Below, one piece after another: positions 51,133 to 62,086 of a stretch of DNA of 64,000 bases (the first letter of the stretch is position 1; every line of letters starts with the position of its first letter). Location of the stretch: assembly GCF_000827125.1 (NCBI RefSeq), contig NZ_CP010311.1, forward strand, positions 2,356,001-2,420,000, given 5' to 3'. The notes beneath the pieces are model-generated. The model made no database searches, had not been told where the DNA came from, and was given only the letters and a program-made list of their open reading frames with translations. Made by a program: the position numbers and the translations under genes. Origin of the DNA: Geoalkalibacter subterraneus. GTDB lineage: Bacteria > Desulfobacterota > Desulfuromonadia > Desulfuromonadales > Geoalkalibacteraceae.

Positions 51133-54100
51133 ATGCACTCTGACTGCATTTTCGTTCATGGCGCGCGCCAGAACAATCTCAAGAATCTCGATCTGGAATT
51201 GCCTCTCGGTGAACTGGTCGTCGTCACCGGCGTTTCCGGTTCCGGCAAATCGTCGCTGGCCTTCGACACCATCTACGCCGAAGGGCAGCGCCGTTACGTG
51301 GAGACCTTCTCCCCCTACGCGCGACAGTTCCTCGACCGCATGGACAAGCCCCAGGTCGATCGCATCGACGGCATCCCACCGGCGATTGCCATCGATCAGA
51401 CCAACCCGGTGCGAACTTCGCGCTCCACCGTGGGGACTATGACAGAGCTGACCGACCACCTCAAGCTGCTCTTCGCACGGGGCGCCCGCCTGTATTGCCG
51501 CCGCTGCGGCAGCGAAGTACGACAGGACACCCCGGAAACCATTGCCACCAGGCTTCTCGATCAACTGGCGGGGCGCCGCGCCCTGATCACCTTCGAAGTC
51601 AGGATCCCGGAGAAATTCGGCCCGGAGGAGATCAAGGAACATCTCGCCGCGCAGGGTTACACCCGCATCCACCGCGAAAGCGGCGACACACTGGAGGTGA
51701 TTCAGGATCGAGTCGTCCTGTCCGACCTGCGCCGCGACCGCCTGGTGGAGAGCCTTGAAGCCGCCCTGCGGGTCGGGCACGGCCGCCTGAGCGTCATTCC
51801 CTTTGCTGACGACAAGACGCCTCAGCCCCCCCTGCGCTTTTCCGCCGAAAGACACTGCGCCCAATGCGATATTTCCTTTTCGGAACCGCAGTCCAATCTG
51901 TTCAGCTTCAACTCTCCCATTGGCGCCTGTGACACCTGCCGCGGTTTCGGGCGCACCATGGGGATCGATCCTAATCTGGTCATTCCGGACGAAAGCAAAT
52001 CCTTGTTTGATGGCGCGGTCAAACCCTGGCAGAGCGAGAGCTACCGCGAATGCCAGGAGGATTTGATCAAGTTCGCCGATCAACGCGGCATTCCCGTGGA
52101 CATCCCCTGGCGCGAGCTGAGCGACGCGCAGCGTGCCTGGGTGATGGAGGGAGATGGCGAATGGGAAGACGGCGTATGGTACGGGGTTAAACGCTTCTTC
52201 GACTGGCTGGAGGGCAAAAGCTACAAGATGCACATCCGGGTGCTGCTCTCCAAGTACCGCTCCTACGATCTGTGCCCGAACTGCGGCGGCGCGCGCCTCA
52301 AAAATGAAGCGCTGCTGTGGCGCATCGGCTCCAGAGAGGATGCAGACGCGGTGCTCGCTCCGCAGAAGCGCTTCCGCCCCACCCATCTCGACATGAGCGA
52401 CGCGCAGCTACAGGCTCTGCCGGGGTTGACCCTGCACGACATCATGCGTCTTCCCATCGACCGTTGTCTGCGCTTTTTTGAGAGGCTTCAGCTGCCATCC
52501 TCCATTGCGGAAGCTGTCGACCCGCTGCTGGGTGAAATCCGCACCCGACTGCGCTACCTGGTGGATGTCGGGCTGGCCTACCTGACCCTCGATCGCCAAT
52601 CGCGCACTCTTTCAGGGGGAGAAGTGCAGCGCATCAACCTGGCCACCGCTCTCGGAACTTCGCTGGTGAATACACTGTTCGTCCTCGATGAACCGTCCAT
52701 CGGCCTGCACCCCCGCGACATGAACCGGGTCATCGGTGTGCTGCACCGATTACGCGACGCCGGCAATTCACTGCTGGTGGTGGAACACGATCCCCAGGTG
52801 ATGTGGGGCGCGGACCGGATCATCGACATGGGACCGGGGCCGGGCAAAAACGGCGGGCAGATCGTATTCAACGGCTCCCCCCAGGCTCTGCTTGAATCAG
52901 GCCAATCTCTCACCGCTCAATACCTGTGCGGAGAAAAGACGGTCGCCGCCCCATCGAACAAGGTGCCGGAGGAAAATGCGCCCAGACTGATCATCGAGGG
53001 GGCCGCCGCACACAATCTCAAGGAGGTCGACGCCTGCATTCCGCTGCAATGCATGGTGGTGGTCACCGGCGTCTCCGGCTCGGGGAAGTCCACCCTGGTG
53101 CAGGATGTCCTGTACAACGCGCTGAGCAAGATCAAGGGCAGGCCGGTCGAACCGGCCGGGGCCCATCACGCCATCCGTGGCCATGAGGAAATCTCCGAGG
53201 TCGTCCTGATCGATCAGTCCCCCATCGGCCGCACCACCCGCTCCAATCCCGCCAGCTACGTCGGCGCCTTTGACGCCATCCGCGCCATTTTCGCCGATCA
53301 GCTCGTGGCGCGCGAGCGCGGCTATACCAGCGGCACCTTCAGTTTCAACACCGGCAACGGGCGCTGCCCCACCTGCGGCGGCAACGGCTTCGAGCATGTC
53401 GAGATGCAGTTTCTCAGCGACGTCTACCTGCGCTGCCCCGACTGCGACGGCCGCCGCTTTCGTCCCGAGATTCTCGAGATCAAGGTGCACGGGGCCGATG
53501 GCGGCGCCGGCAAATCCATCGCCGATGTACTGGAGATGACAGTCGCCGAAGCGCTGAGCTTTTTCGCAGACAGGCCTGAGGTTTTGCGCGGGCTGGAACC
53601 GCTGGAAGCGGTCGGGCTCGACTACCTCTCCCTCGGGCAGCCGGTCCCGACCCTCTCCGGGGGCGAAGCCCAGCGGCTTAAGCTGGCCGGGCATCTCAGC
53701 GCCACGCAGGGGCGCAAAAAGAAAAGCCGTAAAGGGATGCTGTTTCTGTTCGACGAACCGACCACCGGCCTGCATTTCGATGACATCGCCCGGCTGCTCA
53801 AAGCCCTTCGCAGATTGCAGTCTGAGGGGCACTCCCTGCTGATCATTGAGCACAATCTTGATGTCATCGCTGCTGCAGACTGGCTGATCGATCTGGGGCC
53901 GGAAGGAGGCGAAGGCGGCGGCAGGATTATCTGTACCGGCTCGCCTCTGGAGGTCATGGAGTGTACGGACAGCCACACGGGCCTCGCCCTGCGCCAATAC
54001 ATCGACCAGCAGCAGCGCAACGAAGCCTCGGCCAGGATGGGAAAGAGTGGCTCGGATCGAGGAGAAGCCGCGAGTTTTCCGTCCCCGGGGCGAAAACAAT

Positions 54101-56742
54101 CAATCGACCGGCAGATCTGTGTTCACGGCGCCCGGGAGCACAATCTCAAAGGGGTCAACGTCTGCCTGCCCCGGGATGCATTCACCGTCATCACCGGAGT
54201 CTCCGGATCGGGGAAAAGCACCCTGGCCTTCGATATTCTGTTCGCCGAGGGGCAGAGACGCTACCTCGAATCCCTCAACGCCTACGCACGGCAGTTCGTG
54301 CAGCCCTCCTCGCGTCCCGACATCGACGCGCTCACCGGAATCCCGCCGACGGTCGCCATCGAGCAGCGCACCAGCCGCGGCGGGCGCAAAAGCACCGTCG
54401 CCACGTTGACAGAGATCTACCACTTTCTGCGCCTGCTCTTCGTCAAGCTTGGCGTTCAGTACTGCCCCGAGTGCAACATCCCGATCGAGCCCCAGTCCCA
54501 TGAAGCGATCGTCGCCCGCCTGATGCGCGACTCCAAGGGACAGGAGATTTCCCTGCTCGCCCCGCTGGTGGTGGGGCGCAAAGGCTACTACACCGATCTG
54601 GCCAAATGGGCGGCCGGCAAAGGGTTCTCCCACCTGCGGGTTGACGGTGTGGATACGCCGACCGACAACTGGCCGCGGCTCGACCGCTTCCGCGAGCACA
54701 ACATCGACCTTCCGGCAGGAGATGTGAAGGTCACGGCGGAGAATGAGGAGTGTCTGCGCGAGCGCCTCCATCGCGCTCTGGATTACGGCAAGGGGGTGGT
54801 CAAGGTCGCGCTCGTCGGATCCGGTACCCAAAGCAGGGACACGATCTTTTCAACCCGGCGCGCCTGCCCCGACTGCGGGCGCGGCTTTGAGGAACCCGAT
54901 CCGCGTCTGTTCTCGTTCAACAGCAAGCACGGCTGGTGCGAAAGCTGCTACGGCACCGGTCTGCGCCTGGTCGGTTTCGATGAAGAGCAGAGCGGCGAGG
55001 AGATCTGGTGGAACGCCTGGTACGAGGGGGAAGAGCAGCCCTGCCCTGCCTGCAGGGGGACACGACTGCGCCCCGAGGCGCTGGCCGTGCTTTTTCACGG
55101 ATACAACATCGCCGAGCTGACGGCCCTCTCCATCGTCCGCGCCGAGGAATTTTTCCGCAAGCTGAGCCTCAAAGGCCGCGAAGCTGACCTGGCACGGGAC
55201 ATCGTCGCCGAACTTGAATCCCGCTTCGCCTTTCTGCGCGAGGTGGGCCTGTCCTACCTCGGTCTCGACCGTGCCGCCCCCACCCTCTCCGGCGGCGAAG
55301 CGCAGCGCATCCGTCTCGCGGCACAGCTCGGGTCAAACCTGCGGGGCGTCTGCTATATCCTCGATGAGCCCACCATCGGTCTGCATCCGCGCGATAACCG
55401 CATGCTGCTCGACACCCTGGAGAAACTGGAGCAGAAAGGCAATACCATCGTGGTGGTGGAACATGATGACGAAACCATCCGCCGCGCCGGACACCTTATC
55501 GACCTGGGCCCCGGAGCCGGCGTCAATGGCGGCCGGATCGTCGCAGAAGGCACGGTCGACGACCTGATGGCCGCGCCGGAGTCCCTCACCGGCCAGTTCC
55601 TGCGGACCCCCCTTTGCCACCCGCTGCACAAACGGCGTCGCGTCACTCAGCGCAGCGCCCACCTTGAAGTCAAGGACGCCCGCCTGCACAACCTCCAAGG
55701 CTTCGATCTGCGCCTGCCGCTGGAGCGGCTGGTATGCGTCACCGGCGTGTCAGGCTCCGGCAAGAGCACTCTGGTGCGTTCCGTACTGCACGACAATCTG
55801 CGTCGCGGCCTGGCGCAGAAGAACAAGGATGATTCCCCCCCGTGGAGCGGCTGCCGTGAAATCAAGGGATGGGCCTCAATCCATCGCATCCTCGAGGTCG
55901 ACCAGACGCCCATCGGTAAAACGCCGCGTTCCTGCCCGGCCACCTATGTCGGTTTCTGGGACGACGTTCGCAAACTTTTTGCAGGGACCGCCGAAGCGAA
56001 AATGCGCGGCTGGGGTCCAGGCCGCTTCTCCTTCAATACGCGCGACGGCCGCTGCCCGGACTGCGAAGGTCAGGGGACGCGCAAAATCGAGATGAGCTTT
56101 CTGCCCGATGTCCGCATCGTCTGCGAGACCTGCGGCGGGCAGCGCTTCACCCGGGAAACCCTGGCGGTCACCTACAAGGACAAACACATCGGCGACGTCC
56201 TTAAAATGACCATCAACCAGGCCACCGAATTTTTCAGCGCTCACAAAAAAATTCACCACGCGCTGCGGCTGCTGCAGGATGTCGGCCTGGGCTACCTCAC
56301 CCTGGGGCAGCAGAGCCCGACCCTTTCCGGCGGGGAGGCCCAGCGCATCAAACTGGTGACGGAACTGGCCAAGGCCCCGGCAAACGGTGCTCCTCAGGGC
56401 AACGCCAAGAGCGGCAGGAAAATGCGCGGCGGACCGACCCTCTACATCCTCGACGAACCGACCATCGGCCTGCACATGGCCGACGTCGAGAAGCTGATCC
56501 GGGTTCTGCATCGCCTGGTCGACGCGGGCAACACCGTGTTGCTCATCGAACACAATCTCGACATCATCGCCGAAGCCGACTGGCTGATCGACATGGGGCC
56601 GGAAGGGGGAGAGGAAGGCGGAAGCGTCGTTGCGCAGGGCACGCCCGAACAGGTCAGCCGCAAGGAGAATGGGTCACATACCGCGCGGATTCTGGCTGAG
56701 TTTCTGAAAGAACGTAAGAAGATCGTGAGGAGTGAGGAGTGA
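51133..56742 (+). CDS. uvrA: Tandem double-length UvrA
   Basis: 1869 aa, twice the normal about 940 aa UvrA. Two full UvrA units are joined by a linker at about 955-990. Each contains two ABC ATPase modules: Walker A GVSGSGKS at about 33-40, 645, 1022 and 1538, and signatures [24 protein letters not shown] and LSGGEAQR. Zinc fingers in both halves are intact ([16 protein letters not shown] with [22 protein letters not shown] with CETCGG). The halves differ strongly, so this is not an assembly copy. Damage recognition in nucleotide excision repair; the fused form is known in some groups. Confidence 0.95.
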
Positions 56743-56828: not shown

Positions 56829-58139
56829 ATGTCGCACTATTTCTGTCTGCCGTTTTCCACGCACCCACTGCGCGCCGCTCTTTACGACGAACTGCACGCG
56901 CGCCCGTTTCAGATGATCTCCGCGCCGCGGCAGATGACGCACCTGGCCTTTCGCGCCGAACCTGCGGAAATGACGCAGGCCTTTGAGCTGATCTGTGACC
57001 TGTGTCGCCGCTACAGCGTCAACCAGCCGACATCCGACGAGGTGTCCTATCAACAGGATTTCGGCGAATTTACGGTGCGGTGGGAGAAGCACATGGAGTT
57101 CTACTCCCTCACCTTCTCCCGCGGCGGTCCAATCCATGACCCGCCTTTCGAGCATCCGGTCATCGACCTGTTGCCGACGGACTGGCTCTCATCCCTGCCC
57201 GGCCAGGCCGTATCGGCCTTTCACATCATCGTCGACGACGGTCAGCTGAATTTCGACCACGAGAACCTGACCCGCATCTTCGAAGGGCAGCGGCTCATGA
57301 TGAGCCAGCCGAAACAGGGTAAGGCGATCATCTGCACCGCCTTTCGCCTGCACAGCGACGGCTTCGGCCGTTTCATGGTTCAGAACCGCGGCCTCTCCGA
57401 CTACCAGATGGGACGGCTGATTCAGCGCATCATCGAACTCGAAACCTACCGCCTGCTGGCGCAGCTTTCCCTGCCCCTGGCCAAGCGCATTGCGCCGCAA
57501 CTGCAGGAACTCGACCGCGAACTGGCCGAGATGCTGACCCACGCCCCCACCGAGGAGAGCGCTGAAACGGACCGCATCATCCTGGAACGACTCTCGCGCC
57601 TCTCGGGCCGGCTGGAAATGTGGCGCGCCGAAACCAACCACCGGTTTTCCGCGACCCGCGCCTATCATGATCTGGTCTTGAGCCGGTTGCAGAATATCAA
57701 GGAAGATCCGATCGAAGGCTACATGACCTTCACTGAGTTCATGACGCGAAGGCTCAACCCGGGCCTGCGTACCTGCGAGTCGGTGCAGAGCTGGATGGAG
57801 GACCTGTCGCGCCGCATCGAACGCGCCGGGGACATGATGCGCACGCGCGTCAATCTCATGCTGCAGGATCAGAACAAAGATCTGCTCGCCACCATGAACC
57901 GGCGGGGACGTCTTCAGTTTCGCCTACAGGAAACCGTGGAAGGACTCTCGGTAGCCGCCATCAGCTATTACATGGTGGGGCTTTTGAGCTATCTTCTCGA
58001 CGGCCTGCCGCTGGACCGATGGAACCTGGAGAAAAACATCCTCCTGGCGGTGCTGGTGCCGGTGGTGGTCATTGTGATCTGGGGACTGATCCGCCGGGTC
58101 AAGCACCGTCTGATCAAACAGCCGAAACACGACATCTGA
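56829..58139 (+). CDS. DUF3422 membrane-anchored protein
   Basis: 436 aa. The N-terminal HPLRAALYDELHARPF block, central Leu-rich coiled coil (about 200-340) and two C-terminal membrane helices (ISYYMVGLLSYLL and ILLAVLVPVVVIVIWGLI) fit DUF3422, a family without a firm function. Ends 22 bases before the Sec-candidate permease, so the two may be co-transcribed. Confidence 0.85.
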   Translation: MSHYFCLPFSTHPLRAALYDELHARPFQMISAPRQMTHLAFRAEPAEMTQAFELICDLCRRYSVNQPTSDEVSYQQDFGEFTVRWEKHMEFYSLTFSRGGPIHDPPFEHPVIDLLPTDWLSSLPGQAVSAFHIIVDDGQLNFDHENLTRIFEGQRLMMSQPKQGKAIICTAFRLHSDGFGRFMVQNRGLSDYQMGRLIQRIIELETYRLLAQLSLPLAKRIAPQLQELDRELAEMLTHAPTEESAETDRIILERLSRLSGRLEMWRAETNHRFSATRAYHDLVLSRLQNIKEDPIEGYMTFTEFMTRRLNPGLRTCESVQSWMEDLSRRIERAGDMMRTRVNLMLQDQNKDLLATMNRRGRLQFRLQETVEGLSVAAISYYMVGLLSYLLDGLPLDRWNLEKNILLAVLVPVVVIVIWGLIRRVKHRLIKQPKHDI

Positions 58140-58161
58140 CAACTCTGAAGGGAATCAACCG

Positions 58162-59211
58162 ATGGATATTCTGACGGGGATTTTCATCGAATGCTGGAAT
58201 ATTCTGGCCGAATCTGCGCCCTACATTCTGTTTGGCTTTTTTGCGGCGGGGGTGCTCAAGGCCTTTCTCCCCGAGGAGGCCGTGGCGCGGCATCTGGGAG
58301 AAAAAAGCCTCGGCTCCGTCATTAAAGCATCTTTGCTGGGGATTCCTCTGCCCCTGTGCAGCTGCGGCGTCATCCCCGCGGCAGTCGGCCTGCGCAAACA
58401 GGGGGCAAGCAAGGGATCGTCCGCCGCGTTCCTGGTTTCCGTCCCGGAAACCGGCGTCGATTCCATCGCCCTGACCTGGGCCCTGCTCGATCCGATTATG
58501 ACGGTGGTGCGCCCGGTGGCCGCCTTCATCACCGCCACGATCACCGGCGTGGTGATCAACCAGATTCCGGACAGTCCGTCACCCGAGGTGAAAGAGGTTG
58601 AAACGCCGGCATCCGGCTGTGGCTGACCGAGCGACCAGGGCGAAGGTTCTTCGCCCACCTCCCGCCCGTCAAAAAGCGCGCGCCTGCGCGCCGGTCTGGA
58701 CTATGCCTTTGGAGAGCTGCTGCAGGATATCGGCAAATGGCTGCTGCTCGGCATCGGCCTGGCCGGCATCATCGCCTATTTCGTCCCGGACGATTTCTTT
58801 CTGCGCTTCATGGATCAGGAGTGGCTGTCGCTGCTGGTGATGCTGGCCGTCGGCGTCCCGCTCTATATCTGCGCCAGCGCCACCACCCCCGTCGCAGCGG
58901 CGCTGGTCCTCAAAGGATTGTCCCCCGGTGCAGCGCTGGTGTTTCTACTTGCGGGTCCTGCCACCAACGCCGCGACCATCACCGTGGTCGGCCGATTCTG
59001 GGGGCGCCGCGCCACCCTCGCCTACCTGATCAGCATCGCGGTCTGCTCGGTTCTGATCGGCTGGCTCACCAACCGCCTCTATGACTGGGCGGATATTGAC
59101 ATCACCCAATGGGTCGCGCGCGTCGGAGAAACAGCCGATCACCCGGTGATGATCATTTCGGCGGTTGTGTTGCTTTTTTTGATGGGTCGGGCTTTTTTTC
59201 GGCGGGGGTGA
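58162..59211 (+). CDS. SO_0444/ArsP-family permease with in-frame UGA (candidate selenoprotein)
   Basis: Read through one TGA at 58624-58626 (codon 155), this frame has 349 residues. The N-terminal half has the permease (DUF318/ArsP_1) motif PLPLCSCGVIPAAVG (Cys66, Cys68) and SVPETGVDS; the C-terminal half has ICASATTPVAAALVLKG with Cys237 and LLAGPATNAATIT. The TGA falls in S-G-C-G-U, a Cys-rich linker that in homologs I recall carries extra Cys. The frame is not shifted after TGA and codes a normal second half to a TGA stop at 59211. A hairpin at 58638-58656 matches the bacterial SECIS model. Family members export metals or organoarsenicals. A plain nonsense mutation is the alternative. Confidence 0.8.
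58638..58656 (+). other. Candidate bacterial SECIS element
   Basis: GGGCGAA, loop GGTTC, TTCGCCC: a 7-bp perfect stem with a 5-base loop starting with G. It starts 11 bases and its loop 18 bases after the TGA, inside the distance range accepted for bacterial SECIS elements. The GGU in the loop matches the recognition feature of known elements. Confidence 0.6.
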
Positions 59212-59239: not shown

Positions 59240-59346
59240 CGGGATAGCTGGTGCTCTCTGCCAAGGGTATTTGTCGCCAGGAGGGCGACAACTAAGCGCC
59301 AGGGATGGCTTCATGCGGCCCTTGGCTGAGAGCACCAGCTATCCCG
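59240..59346. repeat. Large palindromic repeat, type 1 (shares core with 63699-63797)
   Basis: Perfect 19-bp arms CGGGATAGCTGGTGCTCTC at 59240-59258 and its complement at 59328-59346, continued by GCCAAGGG/CCCTTGGC, with an inner TTGTCGCC/GGCGACAA hairpin and the core GCGCCAGGGATGGC at 59296-59309. It lies between two convergent genes, the permease and arsJ. No T-run. Confidence 0.85.
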
Positions 59347-59372
59347 GGCACCCGACTGAAAATTTCATAAAA

Positions 59373-60608
59373 TCAGACACGCGCCTCCTGCGGCGATTCA
59401 GAATCCTTTCCCCTCGGCAGCCGCAACGAAAGTGCTCCCGCCGCCAGAAGAAACAGCATGGAAACCCACAGGCATCCCGTCAGCCCCGCCACCTGAAACA
59501 CCACGCCCGAAAGCAGGGTGCCCACCAGGCGACCTGCGGCATTGGCCATGTAGTAGAAGCCGACATTGAGGGCGACATCATCGCTTTCAGTGTAGGCCAG
59601 GATCAGGTAGCTGTGCACCGCCGAGTTCAGCGCGAACACCACTCCGAACAGAGCAAGCCCTGCCACCACCGTCACCCAGGGGGACAAGCCGGCATGGACC
59701 CCCAGCGCGATCAGCGCCGTCAGCACCGCCAGGGCAAACGCTCCCAGACTCGCGGCACCCCCCTTGGGCGTGCCGCCCGCCAATCCACGCCGCAACAGGT
59801 TGGGCGCCAATGCCTGCACGCCGCCGTAACCGATCACCCACAGGGCCAGGAAACCGCCGACCTCGGCATGCCCCCACCCCAGACCGGCGGACAGGAAAAC
59901 CGGCAGCCCCACCACGAACCAGATGTCACGGGCACCGAACAGAAACAGGCGCGCGGCGGAAAGCAGATTGATTTCACGGCTTTTCGACAAAATGCTTGAA
60001 AACGCTACTTTTTTCTTCACACGCCCCATCTCGCGGGGCAGCGACAGGACCGCAGCCGCCAGCACCACCGCCAGCCCTGCCGCCATGGCGTAGAGGGCGC
60101 CGCGAAATCCCAGCGCGGTCAACAGCACGCCGCCCAGGAAAAACCCGGCTCCCTTGAGGGCATTCTTAGAGCCGGTCAGTATCGCCACCCACTTGAACAG
60201 CGCCCCCTGGGCATCCCCAGGGATCAGCACCTTAATCGCACTTTTGGAACTCATTTTGGTGAGATCCTTGGCAATCCCCGAAAGCGCCTGCGCCGTCATC
60301 ACATAAGCGACTGAAACGACCACACTCCACCCGGGGTCGAGCAGCGCCAGCATGGACAACGCCAGGATCTGCAGCGCAAGCCCTGCAAACAGGGTGAGCT
60401 TGAGCCCGAAATGGGCACCGATCCAGCCCCCCACCAGGTTGGTGACAATGCCGAAGAATTCATAGAACAGAAAAAGGAACGCGATCTGCACCGGCGTGTA
60501 GCCCAGCGCGTGGAAATGCAGCAGCACCAGCATGCGCAGAGCGCCGTCGGTCAGGGTAAAGCCCCAGTAGGCCCCGGTCACCAGGGTGTAGTTGCGCAGA
60601 TCACTCAT
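59373..60608 (-). CDS. arsJ: ArsJ, organoarsenical (1-arseno-3-phosphoglycerate) efflux permease
   Basis: 411 aa MFS protein with about 12 helices. It begins [27 protein letters not shown], a start shared by ArsJ proteins. Its ATG overlaps the gap stop by one base (TGATG). Known ArsJ works with a partner GAPDH that converts arsenate into 1-arseno-3-phosphoglycerate. The gene order arsR-gap-arsJ here matches that pathway. The basic cytoplasmic loop (MGRVKKKVAF) is also typical. Confidence 0.88.
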   Translation of the reverse strand: MSDLRNYTLVTGAYWGFTLTDGALRMLVLLHFHALGYTPVQIAFLFLFYEFFGIVTNLVGGWIGAHFGLKLTLFAGLALQILALSMLALLDPGWSVVVSVAYVMTAQALSGIAKDLTKMSSKSAIKVLIPGDAQGALFKWVAILTGSKNALKGAGFFLGGVLLTALGFRGALYAMAAGLAVVLAAAVLSLPREMGRVKKKVAFSSILSKSREINLLSAARLFLFGARDIWFVVGLPVFLSAGLGWGHAEVGGFLALWVIGYGGVQALAPNLLRRGLAGGTPKGGAASLGAFALAVLTALIALGVHAGLSPWVTVVAGLALFGVVFALNSAVHSYLILAYTESDDVALNVGFYYMANAAGRLVGTLLSGVVFQVAGLTGCLWVSMLFLLAAGALSLRLPRGKDSESPQEARV

Positions 60609-61615
60609 CACAGACTCGAAGCTACTTTTCTGCACAGTTCCATCATGCGGTTGGCATAGCCGATCTCGTTATCGTACCAGGCGTAAACTTTGAGCTGCCG
60701 GCCGTCCACCACCATGGTGGAGAGCGCATCGATGATGGACGAACGGGGATCTCCCTTGAAATCAACGGACACCAGCGGACGGTACTCGATGCCGAGAATG
60801 TCTTTAAGGTAGGTCTCGGCGGCCTCCTGAAACAGGCCGTTGACCTCATCGACGGTCACGTCGCGTTTCATCTCGAACACCGCGTCGGTGATGGAACCGG
60901 TCAGCAGCGGCACCCGCACGGCGTGACCGTTGAGCTTGCCCTTGAGTTCGGGGTAGATCAGGGTAATGGCGGTGGCGGACCCGGTCGTCGTCGGGATCAG
61001 CGACATGCTCGCCGCCCGCGCCCGCCGCAGGTCTTTGTGCGGCGCGTCGACAATGATCTGGGTGTTGGTCATGTCATGAATGGTGGTGATCACGCCGTGG
61101 GCGATACCGATCTTTTCATGCAGCACCTTGACCACCGGCGCCAGACAGTTGGTGGTGCAGGAGGCGGCGGTAAGGATATGATCCCTGCGAGGATCGTAAA
61201 GGTGGTCATTAACCCCCATCACCACATTGAGCGCACCCTGCTTGACTGGAGCTGCGACGATGACTTTTTTTACCCCCCGGTCGAAATAGGGCTGGAGCTT
61301 CTCCGGCGTAAGGAACTTGCCCGAGGACTCAATGACGATGTCGACCCCGTATTGATCCCAGGGCACCTCCCCCGGCGCCGGGTTTTCGCTGAAACCGATC
61401 CGCTTGCCGTCCACCACCACTGCGTCCGCTTCATGTCCGATTTCGCGCGGCCAGCGGCCATGTACCGAATCGAACTCCAGCAGATGAGCGGCGCATTCAG
61501 CGCCCCCCTTGACTTCATTGATATGAACAATATCGAATTGGGGCCAGTCCCAGGCCGCGCGCAGAGCCAGTCGCCCCATGCGGCCAAATCCGTTGATACC
61601 GACGCGGATGCTCAT
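60608..61615 (-). CDS. gap: Arsenic-operon glyceraldehyde-3-phosphate dehydrogenase
   Basis: 335 aa. Rossmann motif [14 protein letters not shown], catalytic Cys153 in [11 protein letters not shown], and NEIGYANRM at the end. It can use arsenate in place of phosphate, forming 1-arseno-3-phosphoglycerate, which ArsJ exports. Placement between arsR and arsJ supports the arsenate role over glycolysis. AAGGAG precedes the ATG at 61615; the 7-codon longer frame is unlikely. Confidence 0.9.
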
Positions 61616-61705
61616 AAAAACAAATCTCCTTGCCAAGAATGATTTTTTTCGGGAACGATAGGACTATTTCTGTTAGGAAATGATGAGGGGGGTCGCAAAA
61701 ACCCA

Positions 61706-62050
61706 TCAACAAGATGGGCTGTCTTTCTGCTTTTTGACCTCGCGCAAGCGCTTTCGATCTTCAATAACCCAGGCGCGCTGCGGAAACTGCCGTTCGAGAA
61801 GACTGATCAGCTCCTGCTGCAACGGGCATAGGGAAGGCGCCAGGCGGTAGAACATCCACACTCCCCGTCGCTCATCCTCCACCAGCCCGGCATGGCGCAG
61901 ATTGGCCAAATGGCGGGAGACCGTCGATTGAGGAAGCTCAAGCACCGCCATCAGGTCGCAGACACACAGTTCTCCCTCCAGCAGCAGGGACACAATGCGC
62001 AGACGGATCGGGTCGGATAATGCCTTGAAAATTTTCGCTTCGTGTTTCAT
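61706..62050 (-). CDS. arsR: ArsR-family arsenic-responsive repressor
   Basis: 114 aa winged helix. The ELCVCDLM motif (27-34) is the arsenite-binding type-1 site, with Cys29 and Cys31; the third Cys of the E. coli protein is replaced by Met, as in several homologs. The recognition helix is STVSRHLANL. A longer TTG-started frame reaches 62086; ATG 62050 fits the family start. It controls the gap-arsJ genes downstream, and its own promoter overlaps the start closely. Confidence 0.92.
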   Translation of the reverse strand: MKHEAKIFKALSDPIRLRIVSLLLEGELCVCDLMAVLELPQSTVSRHLANLRHAGLVEDERRGVWMFYRLAPSLCPLQQELISLLERQFPQRAWVIEDRKRLREVKKQKDSPSC

Positions 62051-62057
62051 AATCGGA

Positions 62058-62086
62058 AATGTATCCGGATAAGCGGATTTATTCAA
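62058..62086 (-). promoter_or_regulatory. Promoter of arsR with overlapping ATCCGGAT palindrome
   Basis: Minus-strand TTGAAT and TACATT are 17 bases apart. The -10 box ends 7 bases before the ATG, so the transcript is probably leaderless. The palindrome ATCCGGAT (62063-62070) lies in the spacer next to the -10 box, a place for ArsR binding (inference). Confidence 0.5.

Follow-up and report, generated by a model that had tools for sequence, protein, structure and literature searches.

A permease gene at positions 58162–59211 on the forward strand of the window (the whole 64-kb stretch of DNA analysed) is interrupted in frame by a single TGA codon and, on comparison with its relatives, almost certainly encodes a selenoprotein. 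We put the probability at roughly 0.93 that the gene specifies a full-length SO_0444-type exporter, whose UGA at 58624 would be decoded as selenocysteine (Sec) by SelA, SelB, SelC and SelD under the direction of a hairpin at 58638–58656. A fuller account, in which Sec decoding is combined with a soft-metal ligand pair (Cys-153/Sec-155) at a second Sec position of the family, is likely to be the best explanation as a whole.

The permease gene

With the TGA read as U, positions 58162 to 59211 translate into 349 residues followed by a terminal TGA stop. The frame is broken only by the TGA at 58624–58626, which is residue 155 in the context S-G-C-G-U-P, and it is kept after that codon. An earlier sequence-only reading had described a complete permease frame interrupted by TGA alone, and its coordinates, frame and motif are right. 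The C153-G154-U155 codons (the CxU motif) occupy 58618–58626, on the forward strand like the other features of the gene described below. A Shine–Dalgarno-like AAGGGA, identified by eye, sits in the leader (58146–58161) ahead of the ATG at 58162. The protein matches the NF033936 model (SO_0444 Cu/Zn efflux) with 424.5 bits over residues 11–344 with the TGA read through (cut-off 300), and the Pfam model ArsP_1 (PF03773) with 170.9 bits (gathering cut-off 32.3); both scores bear out the earlier proposal of an ArsP/SO_0444-type exporter. Membership of NF033936 is also indicated by the membrane cysteines. C66 and C68 (PLCSCG, C66-S67-C68 codons at 58357–58365) and C237 (YICASA, codon at 58870–58872) are invariant in 63 sequences when U is read as C. 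In the second half, C237 occupies the position corresponding to the CSC motif.

The related permease model for the SaoE efflux transporter (NF040736) gives 181.8 bits, below its cut-off of 325, and identity with SaoE was therefore rejected. SO_0444 of Shewanella oneidensis, the name-giving member of the NCBI family, was compared by description; unlike the window permease, it has no reported Sec in the available part of PMC3219624.

The TGA column among relatives

Relatives were gathered from genomes and titled contigs. The 185 loci reduce to 171 distinct proteins including that of the window, 14 being removed as duplicates; two loci whose matches were split in two pieces (L094 and L096) were removed before alignment, and the collection leaves out some further weak matches. 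The linker TGA recurs as C-G-U-[PG] in 16 of the 171 proteins, the window's included. These 16 gene copies belong to 15 of the 136 genomes of the order (one genome, G019, has two), and a permease match at E ≤ 1e-60 is present in 68 of the 136. The column of residue 155 holds Cys in 132 of the 171 proteins, TGA in 17 (the 16 CxU copies and L112), a gap in 7 and other residues in 15, counts that are rough outside the near relatives because the linker aligns loosely. Neither TAA nor TAG occurs in this column among the 171 distinct proteins, and among 20 weaker relatives, those whose match extends over residue 155 have none of TGA, TAA and TAG there. Alignment of the TGA with cysteines of homologs had been suggested as a check, and the 132 of 171 proteins with Cys at residue 155 answer it. 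These 132 are found among the 155 proteins that lack a CxU TGA, and the comparison supports the proposal that Sec replaces Cys.

A tree was computed for 86 rows with the linker columns removed. It requires 10 changes to account for the 15 CxU rows, and well-supported branches force at least 3 of these; the tree is a quick one with long-branch warnings and SH-aLRT support only, and it leaves out L133, which is cut at a contig end. At the linker position, Sec and Cys have replaced one another repeatedly. The closest relative, at 75% identity (L002 in genome G002), has TGC at the Sec column. Of the hairpin it keeps a weak trace, with 6 of 8 pairs, and a 9.8-bit model match (E 5.5, not significant) falls exactly on the TGC codon; L002 is perhaps a recent change from Sec to Cys with a decayed SECIS element. 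We note three further observations. One genome (G037) has two copies, L144 and L145, of which one has the linker CxU and the other a linker without Cys. Another permease copy, L200 (G071:C106), one of the 20 weaker relatives, has an in-frame TAG at linker residue 138 with its CGC pair intact, and is probably decaying. The plasmid collection holds one distant relative, at 37% identity.

The SECIS-like hairpin

Starting 11 nt downstream of the TGA, the hairpin pairs GGGCGAA with TTCGCCC around GGTTC, giving seven pairs, or eight if the G–C of GGTTC is counted. The arms lie at 58638–58645 and 58649–58656 and enclose an apical GTT, or GGTTC when the last pair does not form. A 7-bp stem with loop GGTTC starting 11 bases past the TGA had been noted before, and both position and stem are as described. 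According to the available text of PMC13188914, bacterial SECIS elements have a stem of 4–16 bp, a loop of 3–9 nt located 16–37 nt after the UGA, a G in the first two loop positions and a minimum free energy of at most −7.5. The window hairpin falls within these limits, with 8 bp and GTT or 7 bp and GGTTC, its loop 18–19 nt after the TGA, and a folding energy of −17.6 kcal/mol (bases 4–48 from the TGA).

In one register common to the 16 TGA copies, at least 7 of the 8 pairs form in 10 copies and at least 6 in 14; L004 and L133 have 5. None of the 132 aligned Cys codons reaches 7 pairs, against the 10 of 16 TGA sites, and the background for this threshold is 1.5% across the 61,699 codon positions in the genes compared. 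Nine of the 132 Cys relatives have 6 pairs or more, near the background of 6.5% of positions. The hairpin alignment comprises 15 of the 16 copies (L016, near-identical to L015, was omitted). Its seven pairs are formed in 91.4% of 105 cells, compared with 47.6–61.9% in slid controls, and in five of the seven both sides have changed. The score for covariation, 0.578, is reached by none of 500 shuffles and compares with at most 0.312 when slid; two of the five covariation measures are weaker, the doubly changed pairs being reached by 30 of 500 shuffles and the pair types by 59 of 500. The apical-loop letters G and T are invariant. On folding energy alone, the advantage of the TGA hairpins over codon-shuffled sequences is only moderate (mean z −1.41 for the 16 TGA sites, −2.67 for the window and −0.29 for the Cys sites).

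A covariance model made from 14 relatives without the window places 58624–58668 first in the window with 29.2 bits, the next match having 10.9. Across the genome the same model again places the window site first (E 0.002), followed by a match of 21.6 bits, with 150 of 1482 candidates scored. The score reflects in part shared coding sequence, and it therefore tests the site as a whole and not the fold alone. The second-best match in the genome (C1:3289247-3289288) has a TAA in frame two codons after its TGA and was not called a selenoprotein; seven further matches are weaker. Rfam at gathering scores has no match across the whole 64-kb window. A model of 15 segments (R1), run over 42 loci without a CxU TGA, returns nothing below E 0.8, and is thus blind to the hairpins of L045, L112 and the relatives with a membrane-site TGA discussed below. 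A stem that covaries in the TGA copies and is missing from the Cys copies supports the SECIS-like assignment made by the sequence-only reading; judged by these comparisons, the hairpin after the TGA is more than chance.

Decoding machinery and selection

The same genome contains selA (611.2 bits), selB (403.6), tRNA-Sec (76.3) and selD (370.8), all over their cut-offs, and a search for these four genes had been proposed as a check on the selenoprotein claim. selA (C1:2752781), selB (2754192) and selD (2756239) are side by side, with tRNA-Sec at 2745074. selD has an in-frame TGA of its own, and the hairpin after it resembles that of the permease in having GGTTC at its apex. selB is over cut-off in all 15 linker-TGA genomes; this is weak evidence, because 115 of the 136 genomes of the order have selB.

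As a measure of selection, pN/pS was taken for the 105 pairs among 15 Sec copies, leaving out L133 (cut at the contig end). The mean is 0.29 before the TGA, 0.72 for residues 156–174 in the linker, 0.41 for residues 175–340 and 0.38 for residues 175–216, the last of which precede the first in-frame ATG, GTG or TTG of the window. Single pairs reach 0.59 in the second half and 0.88 in residues 175–216. The low means indicate that, on average, selection preserves the protein sequence encoded downstream of the TGA.

These data bear on the possibility that the TGA is a real stop, with the two halves made separately or the gene decaying. TGA is an ordinary stop in this organism and ends the permease gene itself, an in-frame GTG, TTG or ATG follows within 8–39 codons of the TGA in several of the Sec relatives, and broken copies do exist, as the TAG of the TGA-free copy L200 attests. 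The window, however, has no in-frame ATG, GTG or TTG for 61 codons, between the TGA at 58624 and the ATG at 58810; the residues encoded there (175–216) are on average under purifying selection, and the TGA is common to 16 copies with a covarying hairpin that Cys copies lack. We regard a real stop as very improbable. A sequencing error, by which TGC or TGT was misread as TGA, would need a change of one base, but TGA and hairpin occur together in 15 genomes, which makes this explanation more improbable still and close to negligible. The recurrent TGA, the aligned Cys and the hairpin all favour Sec at 58624, as had been proposed.

Relation to the published selenoprotein

The sequence-only reading had suggested a new selenoprotein family. 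This does not hold, since the SO_0444 family (NF033936) already appears in the selenoprotein table of a 2026 review, in the part of PMC13188914 available. Table 1 there gives it one Sec, the motif UxC and the accession WP_014809615.1, with the remark 'GenBank annotated', and different Sec positions are counted as separate subfamilies. As UxC is the sole motif listed for the family in that text, the CxU of the window would belong to an unlisted subfamily. The window protein itself has CxU at 153–155 and CSC at 66–68, and so lies outside the published UxC entry. The published protein, WP_014809615.1, is a sequence-predicted member of the same family with one Sec, and the window differs from it in having the linker CxU.

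Sec at a further position helps to place the published motif. C66 of PLCSCG is replaced by TGA (PLUSCG) in 12 of the 171 proteins (L057, L134–L143 and L112). Eleven of these are from genomes of the same phylum, all 11 with selB over cut-off; the twelfth, L057, is from a titled contig of an uncultured Desulfobulbaceae bacterium. L112 (G206; with L146) has TGA at both the membrane site and the linker, each followed by a hairpin, and selB is present. In L045 the linker has U-G-C in place of C-G-U. At the membrane site, 8 of 12 segments form 5 or more of 6 pairs, as do 23 of 158 Cys controls, the best register being chosen from many; the hairpin types look mixed, and the case for a SECIS element is weaker there than at the linker. 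On motif alone the UxC of the available table appears to fit best the membrane PLUSCG site, because U-S-C conforms to it and the C-G-U of the window does not. That match is inferred, and a linker UxC also exists, in L045.

In the literature, PMC13188914 was the only text found that pairs SO_0444 with selenoprotein; the cited work of Haft and co-authors lay outside the search, which limits the claim to newness. A word search of the available main texts of PMC12013277, PMC5029168, PMC8318568, PMC1914089 and PMC1794560 did not find such a permease, none was found pairing DUF318 with selenocysteine, and WP_014809615 was found in the available text of PMC13188914 alone. Within the table as available, the linker CxU is a second Sec position, missing from it, of a family already listed with selenoproteins. 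It is conceivable, though we think it rather less probable, that public databases already carry the CxU form, annotated under this family's name, and the position then would not be new. According to the available text of PMC13188914, GenBank annotates at least one member of NF033936 as containing Sec. That text, however, separates Sec positions and has a single row for the family, UxC, and no other text was found with both terms.

Gene neighbourhood

A DUF3422 gene (PF11902, 496.2 bits) at 56829–58139 on the forward strand ends 22 bp upstream of the permease and is possibly on the same transcript. Downstream and convergent to the permease, 59373–62086 on the reverse strand holds arsJ (an organoarsenical efflux MFS protein), the ArsJ-associated GAPDH and an ArsR/SmtB regulator. 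Among 12 relatives scanned, which were not drawn at random, ArsR-type regulators are upstream neighbours in five: L037, L042, L045, L145 and L146 (5 of 8 in one set) and none of the 4 in a second set (L039, L135, L147 and L148). L134, whose row is the permease's own first half, is left out of these counts.

Two features of the surroundings are recorded here. Between the ends of the permease and arsJ is a very strong hairpin (59240–59346) with 28-nt arms that are 96% complementary, and a folding energy of −71.5 kcal/mol for 59242–59347. Its inner part, 59259–59326, matches 21 other places in the genome, whole or in part, and so seems to be a multicopy element inside a private inverted repeat. 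A UvrA gene at 51133–56742 encodes 1869 residues, three stretches of which are matched by a UvrA model of 943 positions; by its matches it is apparently a tandem, double-length UvrA.

Structure and proposed role

In the AlphaFold2 model (mean pLDDT 88.4) two similar halves are joined by a linker of about residues 134–170 (58561–58671). C66 and C237 occupy equivalent places in the halves, each directly preceding a helix of 13 residues, and C66, C68 and C237 likely make up a metal site in the membrane. The linker is modelled with pLDDT of 55 and 51 in the blocks covering residues 141–160 and 72 for 161–170; the stretch with Cys-153 and Sec-155 is probably disordered. The PDB contains no solved homolog matched by sequence. 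Foldseek found nothing in the PDB at E ≤ 0.001; its most probable match, the dicarboxylate symporter 4f35 (probability 0.98, TM 0.43), is too weak to use.

Under stress by Zn or Cu, growth depends on SO_0444 (PMC3219624, as far as available), and Cd and Cu induce the homolog in Nitratiruptor (available part of PMC10092412). The linker is rich in Cys and His in many other relatives, for example CPIDNCCDGxDCPPEEHKxHH, which points to metal binding. Twelve of the 171 proteins have a linker without any Cys or Sec; the pair is thus not essential to the family and its role would be accessory. We propose, at about even odds, that the Cys-153/Sec-155 pair is a soft-metal ligand. Sec-155 takes the position of the second cysteine in a CxC pair on the flexible linker joining the similar halves. 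The selenolate–thiolate pair would trap a soft metal there, and the metal would be handed over to the invariant membrane cysteines C66, C68 and C237 and then exported.

In selenoproteins of known role, Sec serves mostly for redox chemistry. The main rival is a redox pair, a selenenylsulfide or selenol–thiol couple of Sec-155 and Cys-153 that would sense the redox state, gate the exporter or reduce bound metal or metalloid. CxU could plausibly serve as a redox motif, the AlphaFold2 model shows a flexible linker, and the available text of PMC13188914 takes the view that most uncharacterised selenoproteins have redox functions. The domain matches, however, are to permease models only, and the several Cys and His residues in the linkers of many relatives suit metal binding better than a single redox pair. 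We consider the redox pair less likely and favour the metal trap. There are parallels in metal handling: the available text of PMC13188914 lists a mercuric transport protein, a cation ATPase, SaoB, SaoC and UXX-star as selenoproteins and suggests that the Sec of the last three may be a metal ligand, as proposed here. All are listed under other domain models, which sets them apart from the window permease.

Metal trapping may extend beyond the linker. We tentatively suggest, as something short of an even bet, that this one exporter family places Sec at several points of a single metal path as a very soft metal ligand, with the linker as a built-in metallochaperone. On such a reading, Sec sites would lie in the linker, as CxU in the window and as UxC in L045, in the CSC motif of the membrane, as in 12 of the 171 proteins, and at both points together in L112 of G206; Sec would act as a transport ligand and not as a redox catalyst.

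Genes with the linker TGA may be cut short at that codon by automatic annotation. Sec is found at different cysteines across lineages, and with close Cys relatives as natural controls the question of whether it serves as a metal ligand in this family would be testable.
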